Virus record (IMG/VR): IMGVR_UViG_3300008266_000260
Location: 1 to 33,279 of that record
Direction: 5' to 3' (one strand)
Length of the DNA: 33,279 bases
Source of the DNA: a virus
Shown in pieces: positions 1-33,279 of this stretch. The position numbers were made by a program, and so were the translations under genes. The notes beneath the pieces are model-generated. The model was not told where the DNA came from, did not search any database, and saw only the letters and a list, made by a program, of their open reading frames with translations. How positions within the stretch are numbered: the first letter of the stretch is position 1; each line of letters opens with the position of its first letter.

Positions 1-114
1 CATCAAGCCTGGCACCAGGGTGCTGACCCTCGAGTCCGGCTCGGTCTACATCCAGCGCCAGGGCAAGTCGCTCAACGAGTTCATCTTCACGGACACCCAG
101 GCGACCTACGTCAC
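1..114. repeat. Terminal overlap, copy 1 (identical to window end)
   Basis: These bases are identical to the last 114 of the window. The repeat lies inside the tail tubular protein B reading frame and joins it in frame, which fits the overlap of a circular assembly. A true T7-style direct terminal repeat would normally lie between genes. Confidence 0.95.
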
Positions 115-907
115 CAACCGCATCTCGCTGCTATCTGGCCATCTGCTCAAGACCCCGCAGCGCATCGCCATGCGCCGGGCCGCCAGCACCGATGAGTCGG
201 ATCTGCTGATGCTGACCAACGAGGCAGACGGCTCCCTGGCCGTCTTCTCGCTGATGCGCTCGCAGCAGATCACCAGCCCCAGCGAGTTCACCACCGATGG
301 CCGATTCATCGACATCGGCGTGGATGTGACCCAGATCTACTGCGTCACCAAGCGCACCTTCAACAGCGTGGACAGGTACTTCGTGGAGCTGTTCAGCGAC
401 AGCCTGTACACAGACTGCGCCTTCACAGGCGGGTCTGCCGGCGGCGTGGGTTCCGGCCTGCCGCACATCGGCAAGTCGCTGAACGTGATCTGCGACGGCG
501 TGCCCCAGGGCAACGAGACTGTCAGCGCCGGCGGTGCCGTGACCTTCGACCGCGAGAGCGTTACCAGCTACGAGGTGGGCCTGCCCATCACGGTCTACGT
601 CAAGACGATGCCCGTGGACATCAGGCTGCAGACCGGCAACCGGGTGGGCTTCAAGAAGCGGATCGTTGAGATCAACGCGGTGGTCAAGGACACCCAGCAC
701 CTGCTGGTCAACAACCAGCCGGTGGCTTTCCGCTTGTTCGACAACCCGCTACTGGATGCACCCGAGCCTACCTTCACCGGCATCAAGCGCGTCAACGGCG
801 TGCTGGGCTACAGCCGCGAGCAGGCCATCGAGGTGTCCCAGAACCTGCCCCTGAAGATGACGCTGCTGGGCCTTGATTACCGTGTGGCAGTCCACGCAGG
901 AACCTAA
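1..907 (+). CDS. Tail tubular protein B-like (nozzle), C-terminal part
   Basis: This is the C-terminal continuation of the gene that begins at 31853. The frame entering the window edge (IKPGTRVLTLESG) is exactly the frame leaving the right end. Joined across the circle the protein is about 739 residues, close to the size of the T7 gp12 nozzle family. Its predicted role is the distal part of the short tail, through which DNA leaves. It ends two bases before the first internal virion protein, as expected in the tail-to-ejection-protein order of podoviruses. The sequence has no signal peptide or membrane segment and looks beta-rich. The family call rests mainly on the N-terminal part and on gene order. 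Confidence 0.8.
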   Translation, partial: IKPGTRVLTLESGSVYIQRQGKSLNEFIFTDTQATYVTNRISLLSGHLLKTPQRIAMRRAASTDESDLLMLTNEADGSLAVFSLMRSQQITSPSEFTTDGRFIDIGVDVTQIYCVTKRTFNSVDRYFVELFSDSLYTDCAFTGGSAGGVGSGLPHIGKSLNVICDGVPQGNETVSAGGAVTFDRESVTSYEVGLPITVYVKTMPVDIRLQTGNRVGFKKRIVEINAVVKDTQHLLVNNQPVAFRLFDNPLLDAPEPTFTGIKRVNGVLGYSREQAIEVSQNLPLKMTLLGLDYRVAVHAGT

Positions 908-909
908 CC

Positions 910-1623
910 ATGGCAACTACACCACCAGTACTCGGATCCGCGCAGGCCATCGGCGGGATGCTGGATGCCTACGCATCCTCGGAGATGCAGCGGGCCTCGG
1001 CCATCCAGCAGCAAACAGGCTACCTGTTGCAGGCACGCGACACTCTGGCCGTGGCCGAGGTGCGTGCCGACCTGGATGAAACCTATGCCGCCGTGCAGAC
1101 GGGCCGGATCCTGCAAAAGGCAGAAGCTGACGCCCGCAACTGGCAGATCGCCGGCAACACCCTGATGCGGAACATGAGGCAGACCAATGCTGCCTTGCGT
1201 GCCCGTGCGGCGGCCAGCGGCGTGGCCCTGGGCTCCGGCTCGATTGAGGACGTTCAGCTGGAGAACGTGGCCGCAGCCATGCGCGATGTTGATGTCACAG
1301 ACCTCAATGCCCTGTCTGCCCGTGTGCTTGGCTTTGAGGATGCGATGGGTCTGGTTCAGTCCACGCAGCTGCAGAACACTCTCAACCTGTTCCAGGCCCA
1401 GCGTCAGTCCGGCCAGTACAACCAGGCCGCAGCTGCTTCCCGCCAGGCGGGCGGGATGCTGGCCAACTTCACCCTGGCGCGTGGCGTGATGAACCTGGCT
1501 AAGGCCGACCCGTTTGCAGAAGTCGGGATGACGCAGCGGGCGAAGGATCGTGAATTCAGGGCAGCCTACTACGGGCCGCAGGATCCGCTCGCCAACTGGC
1601 GGCGCTACGGCAGAGAGGATTAA
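910..1623 (+). CDS. Internal virion protein (gp14-like position)
   Basis: A 237-residue protein rich in Ala, Gln and Arg, largely helical, with a long predicted coiled region (residues about 25-110). It contains the stretch RARAAASGVALGSGS (about 98-112), a pattern seen in small internal virion proteins of T7-like podoviruses. It lies directly after the nozzle gene and before three large virion proteins, the usual place of the first ejection protein, which in T7 helps build the channel across the outer membrane. No enzymatic motif is visible. It starts 2 bases after the previous stop, with the gene body of the nozzle supplying the ribosome site. Function is inferred from position and composition. 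Confidence 0.65.
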   Translation: MATTPPVLGSAQAIGGMLDAYASSEMQRASAIQQQTGYLLQARDTLAVAEVRADLDETYAAVQTGRILQKAEADARNWQIAGNTLMRNMRQTNAALRARAAASGVALGSGSIEDVQLENVAAAMRDVDVTDLNALSARVLGFEDAMGLVQSTQLQNTLNLFQAQRQSGQYNQAAAASRQAGGMLANFTLARGVMNLAKADPFAEVGMTQRAKDREFRAAYYGPQDPLANWRRYGRED

Positions 1624-1626
1624 TAG

Positions 1627-3390
1627 ATGGCAACTGGGCGCATTGAATCTGGCCGTGTAGACATCCGCGGCCCCGGCTCCTCCCCCATGCAGCGCGTGGG
1701 TGTGGGGGAGGTCAACTTTGTGGGGCCGCGTGTCGCTGCACAGGGGGCTGGCCAGATCGCTGAGGCGCTCGACCGCATGAGCGCCAACCTGTTCCAGGAT
1801 TCATTCAGGCAGCGGGAGAAGGAAGGCTTGCAGTTCGCTGCCGAGAACCCGCCCACGCCTGACCAGATCGAGGCCGCCAAGAATGGCAGGCTGGACGATC
1901 TGGATCTGGGTGCCAACCCGGTCAGCGTGTTCCAGCAGGCCGTCCGAAAGTCCCGCGCCCTGCAGCTGTCTCAAGCCTTTGAGATGGAAGGCAGTCAGGA
2001 GCTGGTGCGGCTGCTGGAGCTGGTCAAGCTCGGCGATGTCACCCCGGATCAGATCCTCACCAAGATCAACACCATGACCGAGGGGCTCGGTCGCACGCTG
2101 GCCAAGATCGACCCGGACGCTGCCTACAAGTTTCGCGCCTCGATGGCTACCAGCGGCAATGCGGTCTACCGTGATGCCGTACAGGCGCATATCAAGCGGG
2201 CCCAGGAGCAGGCGCTCATCAAGGTGGATGAGACATTCCGAAACCGCCGCGATCTTCTGCAGTCCGCAGCCAATGCCGACCCGGCCAACTTCGACCTGGT
2301 TCATGCGCCGACCTTCCTGGCCGACATCAACCGTTACGCGCAGACCTTGAGCAGCCCCGCCCTGCAGTCGCAATATAGCCAGCAGGCACGCGAGGCGATC
2401 AAGAACGCCAAGATCGGCGTGATCGCCAGCAAGCTCAATACCCCGGAGAACGCCAACACCAACCCCATGGCCGTGCTTGACCGCATCCGCAAGGGCGAGC
2501 TGGGTACGCACTCTGCGCTGCTCAAGTCTTTTTTGGAGGGCCCCGGCAAGGATGATGCCGCGATCCAGCAGATCGAGAAGCAGTTCATGGAGTACGTCGG
2601 GAACCATATCCGGCTGCGCGATGACGCTGCGAAGCTGGACAAGACCAACCGGGAGAACAAGGGCAACGACCTGCTGATCGAATACTACCGGCCCAACACG
2701 CCGACAAGTCGCAAGACAGCAATCGCCAACGAGCTGGCAGGTCTTCGCATCCTGTCCATCGAGCAGCTGGAGAAGTTCCTCGACCCCAAGGCCAAGGCCG
2801 CGGACGGGTATGTGGTCGGCGCACTTGAGAACAAGATCATGCTGGGCGAGATCACCGAGCCCGAGGAGCTGAAGCGCCTGTCTGCCCGTGCTGGTTTGAG
2901 CGGTGAGCAGTACCTGCGCCTGAACAGCCAGCTGCGCCAGGGCTTCGACAGGGATCAGGCTGAGGCCCGCAAGTTCCTCAACCGCGTGGCCGGCGTGCCC
3001 GATGTCCAGAGCGTGTTCGCCAGCAAGGACGACGAACACAAGATCGCCAAGGGCGACAAGCTGGTGGGCATCTGGAAGGACAAGATTGAAGCCTTCCGCA
3101 AGTCAAACCCCGGTGTGGCCATCCCGTATTCGCAGCTGGCCCGCGAGGCCGCGCAGAACTACAACGACACCGACCGTGCTGATGCTACGAAGGCGCGGGC
3201 GCGTAACGAGCTGAACAACTTCGTGACCGAGCTTGTCTCCAAGAAGCGCGTACAGCAGGGCTTCGTGATTGACGAGAACACCGATGTGGATGCCCTGGTC
3301 AAGCAGGGCATTCTGAAGATCACCGCCAAGGATGACCAAGCGGACTATGTTCGCAAGCGCATCCAGATCTTGCGTGAAGTGGCGAGGTAA
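1627..3390 (+). CDS. Internal virion protein (gp15-like position), unknown family
   Basis: A 587-residue hydrophilic, mostly helical protein with many Lys, Glu and Gln residues and no signal peptide or obvious membrane span. The N-terminus (MATGRIESGRVDIRGPGS) is Gly/Pro-rich and followed by repeated amphipathic helices. It sits second in the block of four ejection-type proteins, three bases after the previous stop and two before the next start. T7 gp15 (about 750 residues) occupies the same place and has a similar all-helical character, so a periplasmic tunnel or ejection role is the best guess. I see no catalytic motif and recognise no domain, so the product is inferred from context. Confidence 0.6.
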   Translation: MATGRIESGRVDIRGPGSSPMQRVGVGEVNFVGPRVAAQGAGQIAEALDRMSANLFQDSFRQREKEGLQFAAENPPTPDQIEAAKNGRLDDLDLGANPVSVFQQAVRKSRALQLSQAFEMEGSQELVRLLELVKLGDVTPDQILTKINTMTEGLGRTLAKIDPDAAYKFRASMATSGNAVYRDAVQAHIKRAQEQALIKVDETFRNRRDLLQSAANADPANFDLVHAPTFLADINRYAQTLSSPALQSQYSQQAREAIKNAKIGVIASKLNTPENANTNPMAVLDRIRKGELGTHSALLKSFLEGPGKDDAAIQQIEKQFMEYVGNHIRLRDDAAKLDKTNRENKGNDLLIEYYRPNTPTSRKTAIANELAGLRILSIEQLEKFLDPKAKAADGYVVGALENKIMLGEITEPEELKRLSARAGLSGEQYLRLNSQLRQGFDRDQAEARKFLNRVAGVPDVQSVFASKDDEHKIAKGDKLVGIWKDKIEAFRKSNPGVAIPYSQLAREAAQNYNDTDRADATKARARNELNNFVTELVSKKRVQQGFVIDENTDVDALVKQGILKITAKDDQADYVRKRIQILREVAR

Positions 3391-3392
3391 GC

Positions 3393-5249
3393 ATGGCCCT
3401 GAGCAAACTAGAGCAGCAGCTGGTTGACCAGTACACCAACGTCAACTACCCCCGGATGGAGCCCGAGCCGGAGCCGCCGGCAGAGGGCGAGATGCCCTTT
3501 GAGCCCTACCAGGTGGCGCAGGCTGGCCCTGGTGTGACCGGGCCCGGTGGTGCTGCCTTCGGCGTGTTCCCTGGCGCAGGCCGGCGTAGGCCGGAGAACA
3601 ACAGCGACATCGGCCAGCGCATGGTGCAGGGCGCACCCGACTTCGCTGCAGGTGCTGCGCGAGGATTCACCGGGGCGGCGCTCGGCCTTCCTGGTGACGT
3701 TGAGAAGCTGGGCCGGTTCATCTACCGGCTGGCCACCGACAACCAGGGCGGCGGCGTGCTGGACAAGTTTGGCCGGGCCGCGCAGTCGCTGGAGGAGTCT
3801 TCGGTGCTGCCGTCCAGCGAGGATCTGCTCAAGAACGGCTACACCATCCCCGGCACGCAGATCACCCTGCCGCCGCTGCCGGCAGCTGTGCCGCCTGGCA
3901 CACCTGGCATGGGACTCACGCCCCAGCAGCGCGAGACGGCAGCTGGCGCTGGTCAGTTCGTGGGCGAGCTTGTGGGCGACCCGGTGGCCCTGGTCAAGGG
4001 TGGTCAACTTGCCGTGCAAGGTGGCAAGGCTTTGCTGAAGGCTACGGAGAACGTGCCGGTCGGCCTGAGCATCAAGCCGGTAGGCAACCCCGAAGATGCC
4101 CTGCTGATGCCGGTCAAGGTTGCTGGCCGCGAGATCAAGATCCCGGCTGACCAGGCCGCGGTGCTGCAGAAGGCGATCAAGAACCTCACCCCCGAAGAGC
4201 AGGCGAAGTTCCGCTCAGACACGGCGCAGAAGTTCGTGACCATCTTGTCCGAGCTGCCGACGACCAAAGAGTTCGCCGCGGCGGCCATCGGTGGCAAGGC
4301 CAAGAAGGGCTGGTACGAGGGAAGCGCCCAGGCCATCCTGCAGGTGTTCGGCCCTGACGCGCCCCGCTTTGCCGCGCTGCTGTCGGCCACCAGCCCGCAG
4401 ACCAGCGTCGAGTCCAACCTGTTCAACGCGCTGCAGGTCTGGAAGAACTGGACGGCAGCCGGCCGCCCGACCGACCGCGATGCCATCATCAAGGTGATGG
4501 GCGACAGCGTCCAGGGCAACAAGGGCGAGGAGTCGGTGCTGGACGCCTGGATCAACAACAGCGTGCGGGCCCTGTCGTCGGAAGATCCTAGCAAAGTTGT
4601 ACTGTCTGGGCCGAAGGTAAACAGCTTCATGTTGAACCTGCAGGGCAACGTGGACGAAGTTACCAACGATGCCTGGATGGCGGCTTTCTCCCTGGTTGAT
4701 CAGAAGATCTTCAGCGGCAGCCTGACCAAGGGCGGTGACCCCGGCAAGGGGCCCGGCTACCTGGCGATGAATGCCAGGGTGCGGGATACCGCCGCCTACC
4801 TGACCAAGGTGACCGGCGAGACATGGACGCCCGCGGAAGTTCAGGAGACAATCTGGTCTTGGGCGAAGACGCTGTACGAAACCGCCGGTAGTGCTGGCGA
4901 AAGCCGCAGCGCGGTTCAGCTGATCCGCGACAATGCAATCACCGAACAACTGATCGCATCCACCCCTGACTTCAGGACTCTGTTCTATGACGCAAGATTC
5001 CAACCAATCCTTGAGCAAGCCGGGTATGCAGACCAGCTCACCCGACTCCGCGAAGCTACTGGAGCAGCTGATGGCGCAGCAGGAGGCAAAAAACCCCGAG
5101 CTGGCGGCCAAGCAGGCACGCTTGATCCAGGCGCTACGCAACGTCTCAACGAACGAAACGCCAAGCGCCTAGACACCCTGCGAAAGCAGAGGGAGCAAGC
5201 CTCAGCGGAGAAAGCGAAAGTACAAAACCCATCAGGAGGGGTTGAATAA
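3393..5249 (+). CDS. Virion protein with HhH DNA-glycosylase-like domain
   Basis: A 618-residue protein in the ejection-protein block. The N-terminal third is Pro/Gly-rich (for example the segment around 40-75). The middle (about 270-500) looks like an enzyme domain: SPQT at 334-337 followed by an N and W-rich helix, then LSGPKVNSFMLNLQGN with Lys408, then VTNDAW with Asp426. As I recall the family, the helix-hairpin-helix of endonuclease III-type glycosylases has a Lys and an Asp 18 residues apart (K120/D138); the spacing here is also 18. Mycobacteriophage proteins with an SPQ...GPK...VTxDxWA pattern look similar. The C-terminal 100 residues are charged and coiled. The stop overlaps the next start (TAATG). 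Virion location is inferred from context, and glycosylase activity is a hypothesis. Confidence 0.6.
   Translation: MALSKLEQQLVDQYTNVNYPRMEPEPEPPAEGEMPFEPYQVAQAGPGVTGPGGAAFGVFPGAGRRRPENNSDIGQRMVQGAPDFAAGAARGFTGAALGLPGDVEKLGRFIYRLATDNQGGGVLDKFGRAAQSLEESSVLPSSEDLLKNGYTIPGTQITLPPLPAAVPPGTPGMGLTPQQRETAAGAGQFVGELVGDPVALVKGGQLAVQGGKALLKATENVPVGLSIKPVGNPEDALLMPVKVAGREIKIPADQAAVLQKAIKNLTPEEQAKFRSDTAQKFVTILSELPTTKEFAAAAIGGKAKKGWYEGSAQAILQVFGPDAPRFAALLSATSPQTSVESNLFNALQVWKNWTAAGRPTDRDAIIKVMGDSVQGNKGEESVLDAWINNSVRALSSEDPSKVVLSGPKVNSFMLNLQGNVDEVTNDAWMAAFSLVDQKIFSGSLTKGGDPGKGPGYLAMNARVRDTAAYLTKVTGETWTPAEVQETIWSWAKTLYETAGSAGESRSAVQLIRDNAITEQLIASTPDFRTLFYDARFQPILEQAGYADQLTRLREATGAADGAAGGKKPRAGGQAGTLDPGATQRLNERNAKRLDTLRKQREQASAEKAKVQNPSGGVE
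4987..5172 (+). CDS. Possible overprinted small ORF inside virion gene
   Basis: A 61-residue reading frame, shifted relative to the virion gene that contains it. Unlike most shadow frames here, its translation has natural composition: hydrophilic and helix-forming, with few Arg/Pro runs, including KLLEQLMAQQEAKNPELAAK. An AGGA lies about 12 bases before its ATG, which is weak. It covers the segment where the main protein changes from a folded domain to a low-complexity charged tail, so either frame could be the younger one. An independent protein, a frameshift product and chance are all possible. Confidence 0.25.
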   Translation: MTQDSNQSLSKPGMQTSSPDSAKLLEQLMAQQEAKNPELAAKQARLIQALRNVSTNETPSA

Positions 5250-8200
5250 TGGCCGTCCCCAATCAACCCCTTGATCAGCGTCTGTCTGGGATGCTGTCCG
5301 ATGCCGTGCCGTCGGATGCGGCCCCGCCCGCCAACACGGACATGGCTGATGTGGGTGACAGCCAGGTGGTGACCACCGCCGATGACAGCGTGCAGGTCGC
5401 CCAGCTCGGGCCGATCATTGACCTGCTCAAGTCTGGCGGCAAGATGGTGCGCGAGGGCCAGGCCGCCAAAAGGGGCCGGGAAGCCGCCCAGGAGGCCGCA
5501 GGCGCGATCCCGACGGCAAAGCCGCCCGCAGGTGCCCCGACGGTCACGCCGCCTGCTGCAGCCCCCGCAGCGCCCCCGACGGCCACCCCCCGTGCCGACG
5601 CAGTCACCGGCCAGGTCGAGAGGCTGCAGGGCCAGCTGACCCAGATCGAGCAGACCATCGACACCGCAGCGACGGCTGGCACCCCGCCGACCACGCTGAT
5701 GAACCTCAACCGCATCGACGGCCCCGAGGACTTCAAGGCGACGGTGGACGCCCTGGTCAACTCCACCGGGGTGACCACCCAGCGCATGACCTGGGAGGCC
5801 CTGCTGGCCGATGTGAAGAAGAAGGGCCTGGGCACCGAGGTGCTGGGCGACCTGGAGGCAATCCGCGCCAAGTACGGCGAGCTGCCCCAGGATCTGGTGC
5901 GCCTGCGCCTGGCCAGCTACGCCAACAGCAGGGAGTTCTACGATGTCGCCCGGCAGGCCTACCTCAAGCCGGACGATGCCGAGCTGCAGGCCAGGATGCT
6001 GTACCTCCTGAGCCGCCAGAACGCGCTGTTTGAAACCTACAAGCTGGTGGGCACCCGCGGCGCTCAGGGTACTGCTGCCGGTCGGATGCAGATGACCGAG
6101 GGCATGGCCGACCAGGTGCTGGGCCAGCTGCAGATCAAGATCCCGGCGGTCAGCGATGCCGAGATGAAGGCCATGCTGGCCAACCCCCAGGTGGCCCCCA
6201 ACCTCAAGGTGCTGGTCGAGAAGTTCGTGCAGCTCACCGAGGACGGTGCCCGCGAGGGCCTGCTCAACAAGGTGAGCAAGGTGGGCCTGATCCCAGACCT
6301 GTGGGATCGCACCTGGAAGAACGGCCTGCTGTCGGCCACCGGCACGCACATGGTGAACCTGACCAGCAACGCTACATTCCTGGCCAGCACCGTGGCCACC
6401 CGCGCCCTGGCCGGGGCTATCGGCAGCGGCAAGCGGGCCATGGGCCTGGGCGGCGAGGTCGAGATGGGCGAGGCAGGCGCGATGCTGGCCGGCATGATCA
6501 GCTCCTTCCGCGAGGGCCTGAGCCTGGGCTTCACGGCCCTGAAGACCGGCACCACCCGTGAGATGCGCGAGGGCCTGGATCTGATCAGCGATGCCGGCCA
6601 GAAGCTGGAGGGCCAGTACCAGATCTTCGACGCCCGCAACTACGGCATCGAGAACGAGACGCTGGTCAAGGGCATCAACGGCTACGCCAACTTCGTGACC
6701 CTGCTCGGTGGCCGGCCCATCATGGCCATGGACGAGGTCTTCAAGACCATGGGCTTCCGGGCCGAACTGTATGCCCAGGCCTACCGCGCCCAGGCCCAGG
6801 CCCGCCGTGCAGCCCTGGAGGCCGGCAAGTCCGCGGACGAGGCCGAGCTGATCGGCCTGAACCGCATGGCCGAGATCCTGAGCGACCCGCCGGCCAACAT
6901 CGAGGAGGCGGCCACCGACTTCGCCCAGATGATCACCTTCAGCCGCAAGCTGACGGGCGCATCGGCGCAGATCCAGCAGCTCGCCCAGGACAACCTGGTG
7001 GGCCGCATCACCCTGCCCTTCGTGAAGACCCCGATCTGGGTGACCAGCGAGTCCATGCAGCACAGCATGATCGCTCCGCTGTCCTCTCAATGGCGGGCCG
7101 ACTTCGCTGCCGGCGGTGCCAAGCGCGAGCTGGCCATGGCCAAGTGGGGCATGGGCTCGATGCTGATGCTGGGCGTCGGCAGCTATGTGGCCGATGGCCG
7201 GATCACCGGCGGCGGGCCCGGCGACCAGAACCTGCGGAAGATCTACCTCGACAGCGGCTGGCGTCCGTACTCCTTTGTGTTTACCGACAAGGAGTGGGAT
7301 GCCGAGTTCGTGGAATACCTCAAGGGTAAGAACCTCGACCCCAGCATCGGCAAGGACGGCAAGCTGTATGTGCCCTTCCGCGGCATCGACCCCATTGCCG
7401 GCCCGCTGGCCATGATGGCCGACGCGGTCGAATACGGGCGCTACGAGGACAACGAGGACGCGGTGGGCCAATGGGTGCTTGGCGCGACCTGGGGCCTGTA
7501 CAACTACGTCGGCCAGCAACCGTTCCTGACCTCCATCAGCTCGATTGCCGGGGCCTTCAGCCAATCCATCCCCAACCCCAAGCAGGCCTTCCGCGCTGCC
7601 CTGGATCAGCTGGCCTCGACCGCGGTGCAGTACACGGTGGAGGGCTCCCCGGTCGGCGTGTTCTCCAGCGCCAGGGCCATGATCGAGCGCGGCGTGGACA
7701 ACACCAAGCGGATGACCTCCGATTCCCCGGAGCTGCCGACGGTGATTAAGGGTTTCTACGAGGGCTTCAACAAGGTGCTGGCCAAGACCCCGTTCTTGTC
7801 CGAGAACTTGCCCCCGCAGTACGACTACCTGGGCGAGCAGATGACCGACGTTGACCCGGCCAATCCCTGGCTGGCCAGCACCACCGGCATCCGCTTTAGC
7901 TACGCCAAGCAGCGCCCGGCTGACAAGGTGATGATCACCCTGGGGATGTCCGTCAAGAAGCCGGACGCCAACGTCCAGGTGTCCGATGTCAGGGTAAAGC
8001 TGGAGCCCGAGGAATACGCCTGGATGATGGAGCGCCTGGGCAAGGTCACGGACGGCGCAGGCCGCACGCTACCCCAGGCCATCGTGGAGATGGCCAACAG
8101 CCCCGCTTTCTTGAGCGTGGACAAGGCCACCCAGCAGAGCAATATGCGCGAGCTGTACGGCACCTACACCAAGGCCGCCCAGGGCGAGCTGCTGCAGAAC

Positions 8201-8281
8201 AGCCCGTTCTCGGGGGCTGTCCAGCGGCGTATCGAGATGGCCGCAAACCGCCGCCCGAGGGTGGGCATTTACGACCGCTGA
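5249..8281 (+). CDS. Large internal virion / ejection protein (gp16-like position)
   Basis: At 1,010 residues this is the largest protein of the genome and the last of the ejection block. The N-terminus has an Ala/Pro/Thr-rich linker (about 85-125). The C-terminal half has a long helical region with PFVKTPIWVTSES (about 590-602) and WRADFAAGG (about 614-622), a pattern I associate with large virion proteins of podoviruses that often carry a lytic transglycosylase elsewhere. No convincing transglycosylase Glu motif is visible here. Short hydrophobic helices (for example around 635-650) could touch membrane. Its size and place match T7 gp16, which enters the cell first and pulls in the genome. 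It starts by TAATG overlap with the previous gene. Confidence 0.65.
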   Translation: MAVPNQPLDQRLSGMLSDAVPSDAAPPANTDMADVGDSQVVTTADDSVQVAQLGPIIDLLKSGGKMVREGQAAKRGREAAQEAAGAIPTAKPPAGAPTVTPPAAAPAAPPTATPRADAVTGQVERLQGQLTQIEQTIDTAATAGTPPTTLMNLNRIDGPEDFKATVDALVNSTGVTTQRMTWEALLADVKKKGLGTEVLGDLEAIRAKYGELPQDLVRLRLASYANSREFYDVARQAYLKPDDAELQARMLYLLSRQNALFETYKLVGTRGAQGTAAGRMQMTEGMADQVLGQLQIKIPAVSDAEMKAMLANPQVAPNLKVLVEKFVQLTEDGAREGLLNKVSKVGLIPDLWDRTWKNGLLSATGTHMVNLTSNATFLASTVATRALAGAIGSGKRAMGLGGEVEMGEAGAMLAGMISSFREGLSLGFTALKTGTTREMREGLDLISDAGQKLEGQYQIFDARNYGIENETLVKGINGYANFVTLLGGRPIMAMDEVFKTMGFRAELYAQAYRAQAQARRAALEAGKSADEAELIGLNRMAEILSDPPANIEEAATDFAQMITFSRKLTGASAQIQQLAQDNLVGRITLPFVKTPIWVTSESMQHSMIAPLSSQWRADFAAGGAKRELAMAKWGMGSMLMLGVGSYVADGRITGGGPGDQNLRKIYLDSGWRPYSFVFTDKEWDAEFVEYLKGKNLDPSIGKDGKLYVPFRGIDPIAGPLAMMADAVEYGRYEDNEDAVGQWVLGATWGLYNYVGQQPFLTSISSIAGAFSQSIPNPKQAFRAALDQLASTAVQYTVEGSPVGVFSSARAMIERGVDNTKRMTSDSPELPTVIKGFYEGFNKVLAKTPFLSENLPPQYDYLGEQMTDVDPANPWLASTTGIRFSYAKQRPADKVMITLGMSVKKPDANVQVSDVRVKLEPEEYAWMMERLGKVTDGAGRTLPQAIVEMANSPAFLSVDKATQQSNMRELYGTYTKAAQGELLQNSPFSGAVQRRIEMAANRRPRVGIYDR

Positions 8282-8312
8282 CCGTACAATTTTCAACAGG
8301 AAGGATTGAGCC

Positions 8313-11084
8313 ATGGGCGTCCCAATTTCAAACGTCACGCGCCGTGTGGTGCTGGCTGCCAGCGGCACCGGCCCGTACAACTTCACCTTTGAGATCCTGG
8401 CGGCGAGTGACATCGCTGTCTACCGGGACGACACGCTGCTGACGCTGACGACGGACTACACCGTCACCATCAACAGCAACGGCACCGGCTACGTCACCCT
8501 GGTGGCCACGCCAACGGGCGCGACTCAGATCGCCATCGTCGGCAACCGCACCATCCAGCGCACCACCGACTTCGTGACCGGCGGCGACTTCTTCGCCAAC
8601 ACGCTCAACACCGAGCTGGACTCGCTGACGATCTTCGCGCAGCAGAACGCAGAAGCTACTGACCGTGCGCTCAAGGCCCCGCAGACGGATCCGACCAGCA
8701 TCGACATGACCCTGCCCCGCGCATCGGTGCGGGCCAACAAGACGCTGGCATTCGACGCCAACGGTGACCCGACCACGGGCGAGGTGATCGGTGACAACCG
8801 CGGCAACTGGGCCTCTGGTGTGGCGTACAACAAGCGCGACATCGTCAAGGACACCAGCAACGGCAACGTCTACTACGCCAACACCTCGCACACCTCGACC
8901 GGCACCACCCCGATCAGCACCAACGCTGATGCGGCCAAGTGGGATCTGATCGTTGACAACGCCAGCGCCACCGCATCGGCCTCCGCTGCAGCTTCGTCGG
9001 CCTCGGCGGCTGCCACCAGCGCCAGCAACGCCTCGACCTCGGCAACGAACGCGGCCAGCTCTGCCTCGACAGCCAGCACCCAGGCGTCGAACGCCAGCAC
9101 CTCGGCCACCAATGCTGCCAACTCTGCGACCGCAGCTGCCTCATCGGCCAGCACCGCCAGCACGCAGGCGACCAATGCCAGCAACAGCGCCTCGGCAGCG
9201 GCCACCTCGGCCACGAACGCCAGCAACAGCGCGAGCGCGGCCAGCACCTCTGCGACCAACGCAGCAAGCTCTGCCAGCGCGGCCTCGACCAGCGCGAGCA
9301 ACGCATCCACGTCTGCCACCAATGCGGCCAACAGCGCGACCAGCGCCAGCTCCAGCGCCAGCACCGCGACGACTCAGGCCGGCATCGCCACCACCCAGGC
9401 AGGCAACGCAGCGACCAGCGCGACCAACGCTGCCAACAGCGCAACGGCTGCTTCCAACAGCGCCAGCGCCGCAGCTACCAGCGAAACCAACGCGGCTGCC
9501 TCTGCCGCGTCTGCCGCCTCGGCGCTCGACTCATTCGATGACCGCTACCTGGGCAGCAAGGCCAGCGACCCCACGGTGGACAACGACGGCAACGCGCTGG
9601 TGACCGGGGCGCTGTACTACAACACCACCACGCAGACCATGAAAGTCTACGACGGTGCCAACTGGATCGCGGCCACCGCAGCCGGCACCTCGGCCATGAC
9701 CCGCTACCGCTATGTGGCGACCTCTGGCCAGACCACCTTCAGCGGCGCGGACTCCAACGCGCTGACCCTGAGCTACACCAGCGGCAACATCGTGGTGTCG
9801 CGCAACGGTGTGGTGCTGGACACCAGCGAGTACACCGCCACCAACGGTACGAGCATCGTGCTGGCATCTGCTGCTGCGCTCAATGATGTGCTGGACATCG
9901 TCGCCTTCAAGAGCTTCACGGTGGCCGACACCTACACCAAGGCTGAGGTGGACACCAGCCTGGCCGGCAAGCAGGGTCTTGATTCGGAGTTGACCACGCT
10001 GGCCGGCATGACCAGCAGCCGCGCTACCTTCCTGGCCAGCACCAACCAGTTCGGGTTCATCAATCGGCTTCTGAACGGAGATATGCGGATTGACCAGAGG
10101 AATGCTGGGGCGAGTGTGACGCCTACCGATGCACAGTACACTGTTGATCGTTGGAATGCTGGTTTGACTCAGGCTTCTAAATTTAGTGTTCAGAGAAGCA
10201 CTGTTGCACCTGCTGGATTTACCAACTCATTGTTGGTTACTTCACTTTCCGCTTATTCGGTTGTTTCTGGCGATTTGTTCCGTGTGTCTCAGTACATTGA
10301 AGGATTTAACGCTTCGGACTTGGGCTGGGGCGCTGCTGGCGCACAGTCGGTCACATTGTCGTTTTGGGTTCGTTCTTCACTGACTGGCACTTTCAGCGGC
10401 GCACTGTTGAATAGCGCGGTCAACCGATCCTACCCATTCACTTACACAATAAGCGCAGCAAATACTTGGGAGCAAAAATCAGTCACCATTGCTGGCGATA
10501 CATCTGGCACTTGGTTGACTGACAGCGGGATTGGTATTCGTGTTGGATTCAGTCTTGGCGCTGGCAGTACCTTCAGCGGCCCTGCTGGGTCTTGGGCTGC
10601 TGCAACTTATACGGCGGCTACAGGCGCAGTTAGCGTGGTCGGCACCAACGGAGCCACCTTCTACATCACCGGCGTCCAGCTTGAGAAGGGATCGGCGGCC
10701 ACGCCGTTCGACTTCAGGTCGCTAACCCAAGAGCAGCAGCTCTGCTCTCGCTACTACCACACGAACGTGGAGATAAACACTCTGCCAAGCAAGGGCGGCG
10801 CCTCTTACTTTGAAGGCGTGGTTTCAACTGTCGTCAACAGCGGCACCTCTCAAGCAACGATGTACCGATTCCCTGTCCCGATGAGGGCGGCTCCTACTGT
10901 GTCGGTCTGGACTCCAAACAACGGTACTGCAGGACAGGCTTGGTCAGAAGCAACGCAGGCGAATGTTACTTACTCAATCGGGGCTGGTAACACAAAGCAA
11001 TTGGGAGCGGGGACGAATCCAACCGGCTCCGCTATTAGCGGTAACGTCTATTACTTTCACTATGCAGCAAATGCGGAGCTTTGA
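8313..11084 (+). CDS. Tail fibre / receptor-binding protein
   Basis: A 923-residue modular fibre. Residues 1-150 match the T7 gp17-type N-terminal anchor that attaches to the tail (YNFTFEILAASDIAVYRDD, then FFANTLNTELDSL). Residues 165-190 (NWASGVAYNKRDIV) resemble a small carbohydrate-binding motif. Residues about 215-405 are an Ala/Ser/Thr/Asn-rich repeat likely to form a trimeric shaft. Around 430-450 is YYNTTTQTMKVYDG, a common fibre repeat, followed by a second anchor-like beta domain (about 462-535). The C-terminal 340 residues begin NRLLNGDMRIDQRNAG, typical of exchangeable receptor-binding heads. AGGAAGGA precedes the ATG. Base composition drops sharply in the C-terminal part, a sign of domain exchange. 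Confidence 0.9.
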   Translation: MGVPISNVTRRVVLAASGTGPYNFTFEILAASDIAVYRDDTLLTLTTDYTVTINSNGTGYVTLVATPTGATQIAIVGNRTIQRTTDFVTGGDFFANTLNTELDSLTIFAQQNAEATDRALKAPQTDPTSIDMTLPRASVRANKTLAFDANGDPTTGEVIGDNRGNWASGVAYNKRDIVKDTSNGNVYYANTSHTSTGTTPISTNADAAKWDLIVDNASATASASAAASSASAAATSASNASTSATNAASSASTASTQASNASTSATNAANSATAAASSASTASTQATNASNSASAAATSATNASNSASAASTSATNAASSASAASTSASNASTSATNAANSATSASSSASTATTQAGIATTQAGNAATSATNAANSATAASNSASAAATSETNAAASAASAASALDSFDDRYLGSKASDPTVDNDGNALVTGALYYNTTTQTMKVYDGANWIAATAAGTSAMTRYRYVATSGQTTFSGADSNALTLSYTSGNIVVSRNGVVLDTSEYTATNGTSIVLASAAALNDVLDIVAFKSFTVADTYTKAEVDTSLAGKQGLDSELTTLAGMTSSRATFLASTNQFGFINRLLNGDMRIDQRNAGASVTPTDAQYTVDRWNAGLTQASKFSVQRSTVAPAGFTNSLLVTSLSAYSVVSGDLFRVSQYIEGFNASDLGWGAAGAQSVTLSFWVRSSLTGTFSGALLNSAVNRSYPFTYTISAANTWEQKSVTIAGDTSGTWLTDSGIGIRVGFSLGAGSTFSGPAGSWAAATYTAATGAVSVVGTNGATFYITGVQLEKGSAATPFDFRSLTQEQQLCSRYYHTNVEINTLPSKGGASYFEGVVSTVVNSGTSQATMYRFPVPMRAAPTVSVWTPNNGTAGQAWSEATQANVTYSIGAGNTKQLGAGTNPTGSAISGNVYYFHYAANAEL
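8958..9530 (+). repeat. Ala/Ser/Thr/Asn-coding low-complexity repeat in tail fibre
   Basis: About 190 codons are nearly all Ala, Ser, Thr and Asn in short variants such as SATNAANSATAASSSA. The DNA is a degenerate direct repeat of GCC/AGC/ACC/AAC codons (45 of 60 bases are G or C in 9181-9240). Such repeats form the elongated shaft of many fibres and allow length change by recombination. Confidence 0.85.
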
Positions 11085-11976: not shown

Positions 11977-12147
11977 ATGCCCGACGACAACGACCCCTGG
12001 AAAGAAGCCCGAGATGGCTTCGACAAGTGGCTGCGCCTGTGCTGCTACTTGGGTGGCGTGTGGGTCTTCCTCGACATCCTCAAGGTGCTGCCCCAAGAGA
12101 TCGGAGACAAGATCGTCGCAGCGATTCTGAACAAGCTAGGACTATGA
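11977..12147 (+). CDS. Small membrane-associated protein (56 aa)
   Basis: The translation MPDDNDPWKEARDGFDKWLR is followed by a hydrophobic segment (LCCYLGGVWVFLDILKVL, residues 21-38) and an amphipathic C-terminus. The ATG follows the previous stop by one base and the stop overlaps the next ATG (ATGA). This tight packing on both sides is the main support that it is translated. It could be a holin accessory or pinholin-like peptide; there is no recognisable family. Confidence 0.55.
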   Translation: MPDDNDPWKEARDGFDKWLRLCCYLGGVWVFLDILKVLPQEIGDKIVAAILNKLGL

Positions 12148-12623
12148 ACTTCCCTGCAAGACCCACCCCCACCTCCAGCCGCTCCGAGCGCGAGGCCTAC
12201 GTCAAGGCCTGGGCTGCCATCACCATCTCCCTGTTCGCCCTGCTGCTGGCCATCAACGGCTACTTCGGCGGCAGCAACTCCAGCCGGGTGCTGAACAAGA
12301 CCATCGAGTCCAACAACCTGTGGGCCTGGTACCAGGCCAAGAACATCCGCTCGGTCATCTACGAGGAGGCCGGCAAAGCGGACAAGGCCGCCAGACAGAA
12401 GGCCGACATGGAGGAGATCAGCGAGAAGGCCAAGCGTGCCGAGGCTGACCGCGATGTCGCCAAGAACAGAAGCCCCTGGTTCTCCTATGCAGGCATGGCC
12501 CTGCAGCTCGCCATCGTCCTGTCCAGCGCCGCAATACTGGCTGTGATGATGCCGCTGCTTTACGGCAGCGTGGTGGTTGGCGTGGGCGGTGCCGCGCTGC
12601 TTGTTTATGCAATGGTGATCTGA
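12144..12623 (+). CDS. DUF4337-like membrane protein
   Basis: A 159-residue protein with a membrane helix near the N-terminus (AAITISLFALLLAING, about 23-38), a conserved-looking middle (NLWAWYQAKNIRSVIYE), a Lys/Ala/Glu-rich helix, and two further membrane helices at the C-terminus (about 113-157). The SNSSRVLNKTIESNNLWAWY pattern is that of DUF4337 proteins as I know them; their function is unknown. I placed the start at the ATG overlapping the preceding stop (ATGA) rather than at an upstream in-frame ATG whose extension is Arg/Pro-rich shadow sequence. It probably modifies the membrane during lysis. Confidence 0.7.
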   Translation: MNFPARPTPTSSRSEREAYVKAWAAITISLFALLLAINGYFGGSNSSRVLNKTIESNNLWAWYQAKNIRSVIYEEAGKADKAARQKADMEEISEKAKRAEADRDVAKNRSPWFSYAGMALQLAIVLSSAAILAVMMPLLYGSVVVGVGGAALLVYAMVI

Positions 12624-13123
12624 TGCTCTCTCTACTCTCAACCCTCGGCGGCATCCTGCTCGGCGGCCTGCCCAAGCTCCTGGATTACTTCCAGGCCAAA
12701 CAAGACCACAAGCATGAGCTGGAGCTGGCCCGCGTGCAGTCCGAGCGCGAGCTGCAGCTGGCGGCCCAGGGCTTTGCTGCCCAGGCAAAGGTCGAGGAGA
12801 TCCGCTCCGACCAGATCGCCATGCAGACCGAGGCGGCCATGACGCAAGGCGCTCAGGAGCATGACAAGAAAGTGCTAGAGAAGGCCAGCAAGTGGGTGGC
12901 CAACTACATCGGCACGGTGCGCCCGACCATCACCTACCTGTTTGTGCTGGAGCTGATGGCCATCAACGGGTTCCTGGCCTTCTACCTGTGGAACCACCCC
13001 GAGCTGATCAAGAGCATCGACGATGTCATCAAGTACAGCGAGCTGATCTTCAGCTCCGACGAGATGGCCATGCTGGGCGGCATCATCGGGTTCTGGTTCG
13101 GCAGCCGCGGGTTCAAGAAGTGA
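12623..13123 (+). CDS. Holin, 3-TM (GTA-holin-like) family
   Basis: A 166-residue protein with three membrane segments: near the N-terminus (about 3-22), about 102-123 (TYLFVLELMAINGFLAFYLW) and about 146-162, ending GIIGFWFGSRGFKK. The terminal FWFGSR motif and the long charged helix between the first and second segments (Glu/Gln/Ala-rich, about 25-90) are typical of the GTA-type three-helix holins. It would permeabilise the inner membrane so the cytoplasmic lysozyme encoded next can reach the wall. It starts by TGATG overlap with the DUF4337-like gene, and its stop is overlapped by the GTG start of the lysozyme. Confidence 0.8.
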   Translation: MLSLLSTLGGILLGGLPKLLDYFQAKQDHKHELELARVQSERELQLAAQGFAAQAKVEEIRSDQIAMQTEAAMTQGAQEHDKKVLEKASKWVANYIGTVRPTITYLFVLELMAINGFLAFYLWNHPELIKSIDDVIKYSELIFSSDEMAMLGGIIGFWFGSRGFKK

Positions 13124-13629
13124 AACTCAGCCACGCCGGCGCGGAGCTGATGCACAGGTACGAGGGCTGCCGCAACCGGCCCTACCTGTGCCCTGCCCAC
13201 ATCTGGACGATTGGCTACGGCCATGTGCTGTACCAGGAGCAGATCCGTCTGCCCATGGTCAAGAAGGAAGGCTATGCCGGGATGATCCGAAAGGAGTTCC
13301 CGCTCGCTGAAGGAGACAACCGTGTCTGGACTAAGGACGAGATCAACGAGCTATTCGCAACTGATGTCAGCAGCTTTGAACGCGGTGTTCTACGACTTGT
13401 TCCCGGCGTTGCTGGCCGGCAAGGCAGCTTTGACGCTCTGGTCAGCTTTGCCTTCAATGCTGGGCTAGGCAACCTGCAGCGCAGCCAGATCCGTATGCGT
13501 GCCAACCGCGGGGATTGGCCGGGCGCTGGCGAGGCGCTGATGGATTGGACAAAGGGCGGGGGCAAGGTGCTGCCCGGCCTGGTCAAGAGACGCGAGGCCG
13601 AGCGGGCGCTGCTACTGTCCGACGACTAG
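13120..13629 (+). CDS. Endolysin, GH24 lysozyme
   Basis: A 169-residue lysozyme (muramidase) that cleaves the MurNAc-GlcNAc bond of peptidoglycan. The catalytic signature is clear: Glu15 in RYEGC, Cys24 eight residues later and Thr30 five after that (E-8-C-5-T), in EGCRNRPYLCPAHIWTIGYG. The C-terminal lobe has FDALVSFAFNAGLGNLQRS. There is no signal-arrest helix, so export should depend on the holin. I chose the GTG that overlaps the holin stop (GTGA); the longer upstream frame is shadow sequence. Its stop shares CTAG with the stop of the convergent leftward operon. Confidence 0.92.
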   Translation: MKLSHAGAELMHRYEGCRNRPYLCPAHIWTIGYGHVLYQEQIRLPMVKKEGYAGMIRKEFPLAEGDNRVWTKDEINELFATDVSSFERGVLRLVPGVAGRQGSFDALVSFAFNAGLGNLQRSQIRMRANRGDWPGAGEALMDWTKGGGKVLPGLVKRREAERALLLSDD

Positions 13630-31238: not shown

Positions 31239-31853
31239 ATGGCTGCTGGAGATACCGGGATAACGATCTGCTCTGACGCCCTGCTTCTGCTGGGTGCCAA
31301 GGCCATCTCATCCTTCAATGACGGCACCGACGAATCCAGCGTCTGCGACCGCCTCTACCCCGACATTCGTGACTCCACGTTGATGATGTATCCGTGGAGC
31401 TTCAGCATGAAGAAGATCCAGCTGTCCCGGCTGGTGACCACGCCCAACAGCGTCTGGAAGTACGCCTACCAGCTGCCCGGCGACCGCCTTGGTGGCCCGC
31501 GTGCTGTGTATGACTCGGCTGCCGTGGGTGCCACGCCGCGCAAGGAGTGGGAGATCCAGGGCGACCAGCTGCTGACCAATCTGGAGTCTGTCTTCATCGA
31601 CTACCAGTACAGCACCCCCGAGTACGCCATGCCGCAGTACTTCGTGCAGCTGCTCAAGTACCAGGTGGCCTGGCACATTGCCGAGCCGATCACAGAGCAA
31701 GCAGAGAAGGCTGGCTTCTGGCGGCGCATGGCACTGGGCGAGGTCAACGAGAATGGCCGCGGTGGCCACTTCAGGCAGGCCACGCAGATCGACGGTGCCA
31801 ACAACGCGGTCAAGGTGATCGACGACTACACCCTGATCACGGCGAGGTACTGA
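31239..31853 (+). CDS. Tail tubular protein A-like (gp11, adaptor)
   Basis: A 204-residue protein: ITICSDALLLLGAKAISSFN (8-27), VCDRLYPDIRDSTLMMYPWS (about 35-54), then YAYQLPGDRLGGPR. This series is typical of T7 gp11-type adaptor proteins that bind the portal and carry the tail nozzle. Its length (T7 gp11 is 196) fits. The stop overlaps the nozzle start (TGATG), as usual for the gp11/gp12 pair. Confidence 0.9.
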   Translation: MAAGDTGITICSDALLLLGAKAISSFNDGTDESSVCDRLYPDIRDSTLMMYPWSFSMKKIQLSRLVTTPNSVWKYAYQLPGDRLGGPRAVYDSAAVGATPRKEWEIQGDQLLTNLESVFIDYQYSTPEYAMPQYFVQLLKYQVAWHIAEPITEQAEKAGFWRRMALGEVNENGRGGHFRQATQIDGANNAVKVIDDYTLITARY

Positions 31854-33279
31854 TGTCCCGATTCGTTGACCTGCAGACCAACTTCAGCACGGGCGAGCTT
31901 GACCCGTTGATGCGGGCGCGTGTCGATCTGGAGCAGTACAACAACGCCCTGGCCAAGGCCACGAACGTCTTGATCCAGCCCCAAGGTGGCCTGCGCCGCC
32001 GGCCAGGCACAAAGCACGTTCTGGAGCTGCCCAACAGCAGCACGCCAAGCGCGGCCAACGGCGTGCGCCTGGTGCCATTCCAGTTCTCTGTGTCCGACAG
32101 CTATATGCTGTGCTTCACGCACCAGCGTATGTACGTCATCAAGAACGGGGCTGTGGTCACGGCCATCAACGGCGGGGCCAACAACTACCTGACCACCAGC
32201 ATCACCAGCGACATGGTGGACGATATGTGCTGGACGCAGTCGGCTGACACCCTGATCGTGGTGCATCCCGACCTGCAGCCGGTCAAGATCGTGCGCGGCG
32301 GCAGCGATGCCACCTGGACGGCCACCACCATCACCTTCGACAGCGTGCCGAAGTACGCTTTCAACCTGGACACGCACACGAACAACTCGGAGTCGCTGAC
32401 CCCGTCTGCGGTGAGCGGCAACATCACGCTGACCACCACCAGCTCCAAGCACGACACCGGCACGGCCCAGGCTGGAACCAGCACCACCATCACGCTGAAG
32501 GGATCATCCAGCGGTACGGACGACTACTACAACGGCCTGTACATAACCATCACAGGCGGCACAGGCGCTGGCCAGATCCGCATCATCGAGGACTACGTCG
32601 GCTCCACCAAGGTGGCCACCGTTGACCGGGCCTGGACGACCACGCCAGACAACACCAGCACCTACAGCATCACAAGCTGGACGACCGAGGCGGTCAACCA
32701 GTACGTCAACGCCACGCCCCAGGGCCGCGCCCGCATCGTGCGGTATGTGTCGGCCACGGTGGTCGAGGCCATCACCGAATACCCGTTCTTCAGCACCGCA
32801 GCAATCGACGCGGGCCGCTGGGAGCTGGAACATGGCTACGAGGATGTGTGGAGCAGCACCAAGGGTTGGCCGCGGTCGGTCACCTTCCATGAGGGCCGGC
32901 TGTATTTCGGCGGCTCCAAGTCGCGCCCGTCCACCATCTGGGGCAGCAAGATCGGCCTGTTCTTTGAGTTCGTGCCGACCGAGTCCCTGGACGACGATGC
33001 GGTCGAGGCCACGCTGGACACCAACGAGCTGAACGTCATCACCGACATCATCAGCTCGCGTGACTTCCAGGTCTTCACCACGGGCGGCGAGTTCTTCGTC
33101 CCTCAGCGAGATAGCGACCCGATCACCCCGCTGACCTTCACATTCAAGAACGTCAGCAGGAACGGCATCAAGCCTGGCACCAGGGTGCTGACCCTCGAGT
33201 CCGGCTCGGTCTACATCCAGCGCCAGGGCAAGTCGCTCAACGAGTTCATCTTCACGGACACCCAGGCGACCTACGTCAC
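31853..33279 (+). CDS. Tail tubular protein B-like (gp12, nozzle), N-terminal part
   Basis: The gene is open to the window end and continues in frame at the window start. The N-terminus MSRFVDLQTNFSTGELDPLM, then DLEQYNNALAKATNVLIQPQ and GGLRRRPGT, is the conserved start of phage tail tubular/nozzle proteins (NFxxGELSPLMxxRxDLxxY...NxxVxPQGGxxRRPGT). The rest is beta-rich with Thr/Ser. It starts by TGATG overlap with the adaptor gene. The full protein, about 739 residues, forms the distal tail tube. Confidence 0.88.
   Translation, partial: MSRFVDLQTNFSTGELDPLMRARVDLEQYNNALAKATNVLIQPQGGLRRRPGTKHVLELPNSSTPSAANGVRLVPFQFSVSDSYMLCFTHQRMYVIKNGAVVTAINGGANNYLTTSITSDMVDDMCWTQSADTLIVVHPDLQPVKIVRGGSDATWTATTITFDSVPKYAFNLDTHTNNSESLTPSAVSGNITLTTTSSKHDTGTAQAGTSTTITLKGSSSGTDDYYNGLYITITGGTGAGQIRIIEDYVGSTKVATVDRAWTTTPDNTSTYSITSWTTEAVNQYVNATPQGRARIVRYVSATVVEAITEYPFFSTAAIDAGRWELEHGYEDVWSSTKGWPRSVTFHEGRLYFGGSKSRPSTIWGSKIGLFFEFVPTESLDDDAVEATLDTNELNVITDIISSRDFQVFTTGGEFFVPQRDSDPITPLTFTFKNVSRNGIKPGTRVLTLESGSVYIQRQGKSLNEFIFTDTQATYV
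33166..33279. repeat. Terminal overlap, copy 2 (identical to window start)
   Basis: Identical base for base to positions 1-114 and lying within the nozzle gene. Removing one copy gives a circle of 33,165 bp with an unbroken reading frame across the junction. Confidence 0.95.

Follow-up and report, generated by a model that had tools for sequence, protein, structure and literature searches.

A DUF7178 domain with a predicted HhH-GPD glycosylase fold in a putative internal virion protein of a small phage

A 618-aa protein encoded in a viral DNA stretch of 33,279 nucleotides (the whole analysed stretch, hereafter the window) contains a domain of the family DUF7178, residues 255-505, which according to structure prediction has the HhH-GPD fold across its whole length. 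We consider it fairly probable that this domain is an Ogg2-like base-excision enzyme that uses Lys408 and Asp426 as catalytic residues, is carried in the virion and is delivered at entry. The fold, the conservation of the Lys/Asp pair, the gene position and the domain fusions were computed, and from these we infer packaging, ejection and catalysis. With its placement in the HhH-GPD superfamily and an intact Lys/Asp pair, DUF7178 becomes a testable enzyme and, through its occurrence in internal virion and polyvalent proteins, a module of base-excision type joins the repertoire that phages may inject. Glycosylase labels had already been given to some standalone members by depositors; new here are the tests of fold and catalytic pair across DUF7178 and the finding that predicted internal virion proteins and polyvalent proteins contain the domain as a module. 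In the open-access literature, we found no paper that names DUF7178 and none that reports a domain of this kind from virion or polyvalent proteins.

Genomic context of the 618-aa protein

The gene of the 618-aa protein is located in a cassette that runs from a tail protein to a tail fibre in the following order:

2..907, plus strand: C-terminal part of the tail protein, encoded by a gene divided between the two ends of the window (phrog_376, E 1.4e-42)
910..1623, plus strand: 237-aa internal-virion-type gene without family match, syntenic in relatives
1627..3390, plus strand: 587-aa internal-virion-type gene without family match, syntenic in relatives
3393..5249, plus strand: 618-aa predicted internal virion protein with the domain (ORF, orthologues and gene neighbours)
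5249..8281, plus strand: 1010-aa internal virion protein in a gp16-like position (phrog_6651, E 2.1e-15)
8313..11084, plus strand: tail fibre gene, the last of the cassette (phrog_38058, E 5e-63)

On the basis of this gene order and of homologues fused into polyvalent virion-type proteins, the 618-aa protein was predicted to be an internal virion protein, which supports the virion setting suggested by an earlier note on this DNA. The N-terminal part of the split tail protein is encoded at 31547-33277, and the corresponding gene is a single 852-aa ORF in the related locus L001. It was also observed that the first 100 bases of the window recur near its end, with the one tail gene split over both ends; this pattern suggests that the window is the complete genome of a small phage, assembled as a circle. 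No hypermodification, DNA polymerase or integrase genes could be identified among the window ORFs scanned, in which small ORFs were partly covered. Outside the cassette, a 198-aa protein with a DUF4337 match (12027-12623, E 4.1e-29) is encoded near the endolysin gene (12892-13629).

Domain architecture and family membership

The following parts of the 618-aa protein could be distinguished:

3393..4154, plus strand: fast-evolving N-terminal region, residues 1-254 (identity across orthologues)
4155..4907, plus strand: DUF7178/HhH-GPD-like domain core, residues 255-505 (Pfam PF23802; AlphaFold2 model m073e1cdb7505; VIA-align Z 10.1 to 3n0u)
4311..4316, plus strand: conserved W307-Y308 (53/53 in the virion set, kept in standalone members)
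4392..4403, plus strand: SPQT, residues 334-337 (S334 and P335 invariant, 37/37)
4602..4616, plus strand: shortened hairpin L-S-G-P-K408 (K in 53/53 and 37/37; hhalign of standalone members)
4668..4670, plus strand: D426 in VTNDAW (D in 53/53 and 37/37; helix position in the model)
4842..4856, plus strand: C-terminal motif Q484-W488 (Q and W in 52/52; hhalign with the Ogg2 profile)
4908..5222, plus strand: helical C-terminal extension, residues 506-610 (kept in virion forms, absent from standalone members of ~195 aa)

Orthologues of the 618-aa protein in 12 sampled contigs were 562-635 aa long, and their mean identity was 35% over residues 1-254 versus 86% over residues 255-505. The N-terminal region was without match in the giant ORFs of relatives. 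In the C-terminal extension, which occurs only in virion forms, F527 and R592 were invariant in the virion set. The whole protein is devoid of cysteine. Pfam recognised one domain in it, DUF7178, which matched residues 305-432 (E 3.7e-8; 34 bits versus a cut-off of 27) and alone exceeded its curated cut-off, and PF00730 had no match anywhere in the genome. The protein also matched phrog_3842; both DUF7178 and phrog_3842 are families of unknown function. The window protein had no direct match to the NCBIfam glycosylases either, and sequence searches of the PDB with virion-form and standalone profiles returned unrelated matches alone (E >0.2). In its Asp region, one standalone member aligned with an N-glycosylase/DNA lyase model of NCBIfam at E 0.16, a sub-threshold hit that was set aside.

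Conservation of the Lys/Asp pair

A scan of IMG/VR yielded 80 loci and a profile scan yielded 277 relatives. In 53 non-redundant domain sequences, W307, Y308, S334, P335, G406, P407, K408, D426 and W428 were all invariant; it should be noted that some scan patterns overlapped the D426 stretch, so that the conservation of this Asp in those sets is biased. An independent set was collected by tblastn of phage records with divergent members (~120 records, mostly standalone proteins of ~195 aa). We then used a 37-sequence alignment comprising the window domain, 12 virion-type members and 24 members from phage records (23 standalone and one embedded in a large protein), the majority of which had been retrieved without patterns over S334, P335, K408 and D426. 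Each of these four residues was conserved in all 37 sequences of this diverse alignment, and adjacent columns were variable. The Asp site of standalone members reads (I/V)-D-(R/G/V)-(H/W)-A, compared with V-D-T-H-V in EndoIII and I-D-R-H-I in Ogg2.

SPQT (334-337), Lys408 and Asp426 in VTNDAW, the last two at a spacing of 18, were the basis on which the earlier note had proposed a glycosylase. All of them are present in the ORF, the spacing was again 18 when recounted, and the conservation of the pair in homologues, named beforehand as a refutation test, held in both the 53- and the 37-sequence sets. However, the three motifs by themselves are too weak as evidence for a glycosylase. The 618-aa protein contains two K-x17-D pairs, the shuffled protein contains 1.6 on average and such a pair is present in 81% of shuffles; for a stricter motif (G.K ... 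D.[HWN]hydrophobic), the fraction falls to 2.7%. The spacing is thus at chance level and was rejected as standalone evidence. What lifts the Lys/Asp pair above chance is its conservation in 37/37 sequences together with the predicted fold. K408 (codon 4614-4616, within LSGPKVNSFMLNLQGN) is a candidate Schiff-base lysine, and D426, which in the model caps the N-terminus of the next helix, is a candidate for the catalytic Asp; SPQT, compared by eye, probably corresponds to the S-x-Q loop in EndoIII/Ogg2.

Predicted fold

The virion form (residues 255-610) was modelled with AlphaFold2 on a 52-sequence alignment (A1), which gave an all-helical model with a pLDDT of 91.4 and a pTM of 0.89. Foldseek found no significant match of this model in the PDB; AGOG appeared at rank 25 with a probability of 0.16, amid transporters and prenyltransferases, and Foldseek by itself gave no E <0.001 for either the virion or the standalone model. 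When VIA-align was run on the Foldseek candidates, ranks 1-14 were all HhH-GPD glycosylases (Z 10.1 to 6.5) and the next unrelated fold had a Z of 5.9. The best matches were TmOgg (3n0u; Z 10.1, 182 aligned residues, 3.7 A), MjaOgg (10.0) and SsOgg (9.5), followed at lower ranks, down to Z 6.5, by hOGG1, MutY, AGOG, NTHL1 and EndoIII.

Because a Z of about 10 can be ordinary in a helical protein, the fold test was repeated with a standalone member, the S-CBP42 protein in IMG/VR, modelled on an alignment of 19 sequences (A5). This model (pLDDT 93.4) had a Foldseek probability of 1.00 to AGOG and MjaOgg. Its VIA-align scores were 13.4 for MjaOgg (183 of 198 residues), 13.0 for TmOgg, 12.9 for SsOgg and 10.7 for EndoIII, and glycosylases made up all 50 matches listed. 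The poor Foldseek ranking of the virion model was thus resolved by VIA-align and the standalone model, and the domain is predicted by the models to have the HhH-GPD fold across its whole length.

In both models, the Lys is in the first turn of the helix that follows the hairpin and the Asp directly precedes the next helix (in the virion model, D426 is model residue 172 and the helix begins at 173). This arrangement is that of the catalytic pair in the HhH-GPD superfamily. In place of the canonical G-h-G hairpin the window protein reads L-S-G-P-K, and the standalone model has a helix-hairpin-helix (108-115, 118-127) with a shortened hairpin. The earlier note had asked for a comparison with EndoIII/MutY/AlkA-type folds, and its suggestion of an endonuclease III-type domain stands as regards the HhH-GPD core; the closest fold is Ogg2, and the G-h-G hairpin is reduced. 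The positions proposed for K408 and D426 agree with the helix placement in the models and with the profile alignments described below.

Profile alignments with EndoIII and Ogg2

Sequence links were sought with hhalign. The standalone profile aligned with EndoIII sequences from genomes at a score of 24.1, which placed its Lys and Asp on the corresponding EndoIII residues; in 200 column shuffles, the mean was 13.2 and the maximum 22.6. Against an Ogg2 profile built from PDB sequences, the score was 35.7 with a probability of 70% on the core columns (column shuffles: mean 11.9, sd 2.2, max 18.8). The Ogg2 match spans the hairpin, the Asp and the C-terminal Y...W motif, with the catalytic Lys and Asp aligned, and Q484-W488 falls on the conserved D-L-x-x-W motif of Ogg2. 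With A1, the narrow profile of virion forms, hhalign gave nothing against EndoIII or one Ogg2 sequence, and the score against the Ogg2 profile was not above shuffles (48/200); thus, the sequence link to Ogg2 depends on the standalone members.

Polyvalent fusions and standalone genes in relatives

Relatives carry the domain inside polyvalent proteins of 1,200-4,000 aa. Of 48 non-redundant relatives, 34 had it within an ORF of at least 1200 aa, and several of these ORFs are located downstream of the same tail gene as the window cassette. Pfam domains identified in 17 of these giants included ART-PolyVal (12), LPD22 (5), LPD38 (4), GNAT (3) and InPase (2), and LPD37, LPD39, LPD23, RadC, SLT transglycosylase, MuF_C and zeta toxin were found once each. 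An 1860-aa ORF (3549-9128 of IMGVR_UViG_3300014167_000001, L061) combines an S-AdoMet lyase (E 4.7e-17) and DUF7178 in one polypeptide. S-AdoMet lyase is the kind of enzyme that phage T3 uses against restriction; as far as its domain matches tell, this ORF joins an enzyme of anti-restriction type to one that resembles a glycosylase. In L028, one of the loci with giants (L028-L054), ART-PolyVal (604-714) is located just N-terminal to the glycosylase-like domain (783-969), and the two are possibly a conserved pair. The giant homologues correspond to what Iyer et al. 2017 (PMC5512222) termed polyvalent proteins; a glycosylase is not mentioned in the text of that paper.

The standalone genes showed a marked positional trend. 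In 17 of 18 linear records (L170-L192) from unrelated phage groups, which are partly non-independent and represent roughly ten lineages, the gene was at most 6.5% of the genome from an end. It is the third gene in Lentibacter phage ICBM2, Anabaena phage A-4L and CRP-1 and the second in Celeribacter phage P12053L, and it is at the extreme right end in several mycobacteriophages. The exception is SIO1, which belongs to the same genus as P12053L and may be a permuted record. Predicted virion carriage and an early-gene-type position would both suggest that the domain acts when infection begins.

Depositors named most standalone members 'hypothetical', some 'glycosylase', 'DNA glycosylase' or 'N-glycosylase/DNA lyase' (MK4 gp76, Shagrat gp113, Kumao gp115 and S-CRES3 gp63 are glycosylase-named) and others 'endonuclease' or 'portal protein'. 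Tunturi_3 gp111 (PP885686.1 74402-74998; L169 3893-4489), a DUF7178 protein of 198 aa, had been given the name 'portal protein' on deposition, which is probably a misannotation, and prophiT49-2 gp166, labelled 'endonuclease', is a further member. Several large actinobacterial phages (OK040793.1, ON637770.1, OK040790.1 and PP978770.1) had two DUF7178-like places per genome, possibly paralogues.

Proposed function and alternatives

If the domain is an Ogg2-like base-excision enzyme, it would be packaged with the other internal virion proteins and would be released from the particle before the DNA or together with it. The HhH-GPD core would then bind duplex DNA and flip out a modified or damaged base, and Lys408, activated by Asp426, would attack C1', so that the base leaves and the resulting site is abasic or nicked. 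An Ogg2-like fold does not imply 8-oxoguanine as the substrate. A role in the first minutes of infection is favoured because of the fusions to host-takeover and anti-restriction-type domains and the terminal, early-gene-type positions. Because of the fusion partners, we would favour counter-defence or host takeover somewhat over repair of incoming DNA, which is almost as probable, and attack on host DNA may also be considered. More broadly, we put forward as a tentative idea that the delivery of a base-excision enzyme at entry is widespread among phages. The enzyme would arrive ready-made within virion or polyvalent proteins or be among the first products expressed, and it would remove or make use of a base mark, on either the incoming or the host DNA, for counter-defence or takeover. 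If true, this would be an undescribed base-excision arm of the injected-effector arsenal.

Several alternatives should be considered. First, the ejected domain could repair incoming phage DNA by removing oxidised or UV-damaged bases such as 8-oxoguanine. The nearest folds are indeed 8-oxoguanine glycosylases of several families, and the relatives include cyanophages, roseophages and Salinibacter phages of sunlit waters. However, fold similarity does not give the substrate, host enzymes could do this work, and the fusion partners are of host-takeover and anti-restriction types rather than repair proteins; we regard repair as less likely than not, but as a serious option.

Second, the enzyme might excise from host DNA a base or epigenetic mark that is absent from phage DNA, leaving abasic sites that would cripple the chromosome. 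Fusions to ART, zeta-toxin and GNAT domains are in line with such an attack, for which restriction glycosylases (PMC10273834) and Brig1 (PMC11078745) provide precedents in conflict, but many phage types keep the domain as a small gene with no partner, and we consider this reading unlikely.

A slightly less likely explanation again is that the scaffold and its Lys are used for abasic-site cleavage or base hypermodification, that is, by an AP lyase or a base transferase. Thymine-hypermodifying phage enzymes have been related to the HhH-GPD fold, and the Lys is invariant; on the other hand, the Asp required for base excision is invariant as well, and the window ORFs scanned lack hypermodification genes. 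It is improbable that the domain is a non-catalytic DNA-binding module that aids DNA packing or translocation. Its DNA-binding fold and its location in the virion cassette would suit such a role, but neither Lys nor Asp varies among the diverse phages and settings, non-virion versions among them, and a domain of 86% identity stands beside a region of 35%. Finally, a chance motif without the HhH-GPD fold has in its favour the frequency of K-x17-D in shuffles and is scarcely credible in view of two independent models, the searches and the conservation; as far as prediction goes, it is already refuted.

Comparison with known systems

The preferred interpretation, in which an Ogg2-like enzyme for base excision is delivered at entry, can be compared with several known systems. 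With Ogg2 proteins (MjaOgg, 3knt/3fhf; TmOgg, 3n0u; SsOgg, 3fhg), the window domain shares the whole-domain fold, the Lys and Asp pair and the aligned C-terminal Trp helix. It differs in its ~10% sequence identity, its S-G-P-K hairpin and the lack of a Pfam match to them, and DUF7178 domains are phage-carried and partly located inside virion proteins. Endonuclease III and MutY have in common with it the HhH-GPD fold, the K-D spacing of 18 and, in standalone members, the D-x-H-h signature, whereas their structural scores were lower. No member of A1 has the four cysteines of the [4Fe-4S] motif, and such a cluster is absent from the window protein because it has no cysteines. The glycosylase-named standalone DUF7178 proteins belong to the same family and carry the same invariant residues, but they are ~195 aa long and encoded by separate genes near genome ends; the window form has in addition an N-terminal region, the helical C-terminal extension and a virion-cassette setting.

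The gene order of T7 is gp12-14-15-16-17. The window resembles the region of the ejected internal virion proteins gp14-gp15-gp16 in its order from tail protein through internal virion proteins to tail fibre and in the phrog_6651 match of the 1010-aa protein; it has one gene more than T7, which codes for an enzyme-like domain and is inserted after the gp15-like and before the gp16-like position. Homologues of the domain occur with ART-PolyVal, LPD22, LPD38, InPase and MuF_C in giants that, like other polyvalent proteins (PMC5512222), combine several disparate enzymatic domains, whereas the window protein itself does not. Restriction glycosylases (PMC10273834) and Brig1 (PMC11078745) demonstrate that base excision serves phage-host or self/non-self conflict. 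Brig1 is, as the window domain may be, a DNA glycosylase in phage-host conflict, but it is host-encoded, related to uracil-DNA glycosylases and acts on glucosylated phage DNA (PMC11078745). Anti-phage glycosylases of the Brig1 type raise the mirrored possibility that phages inject glycosylases of their own.
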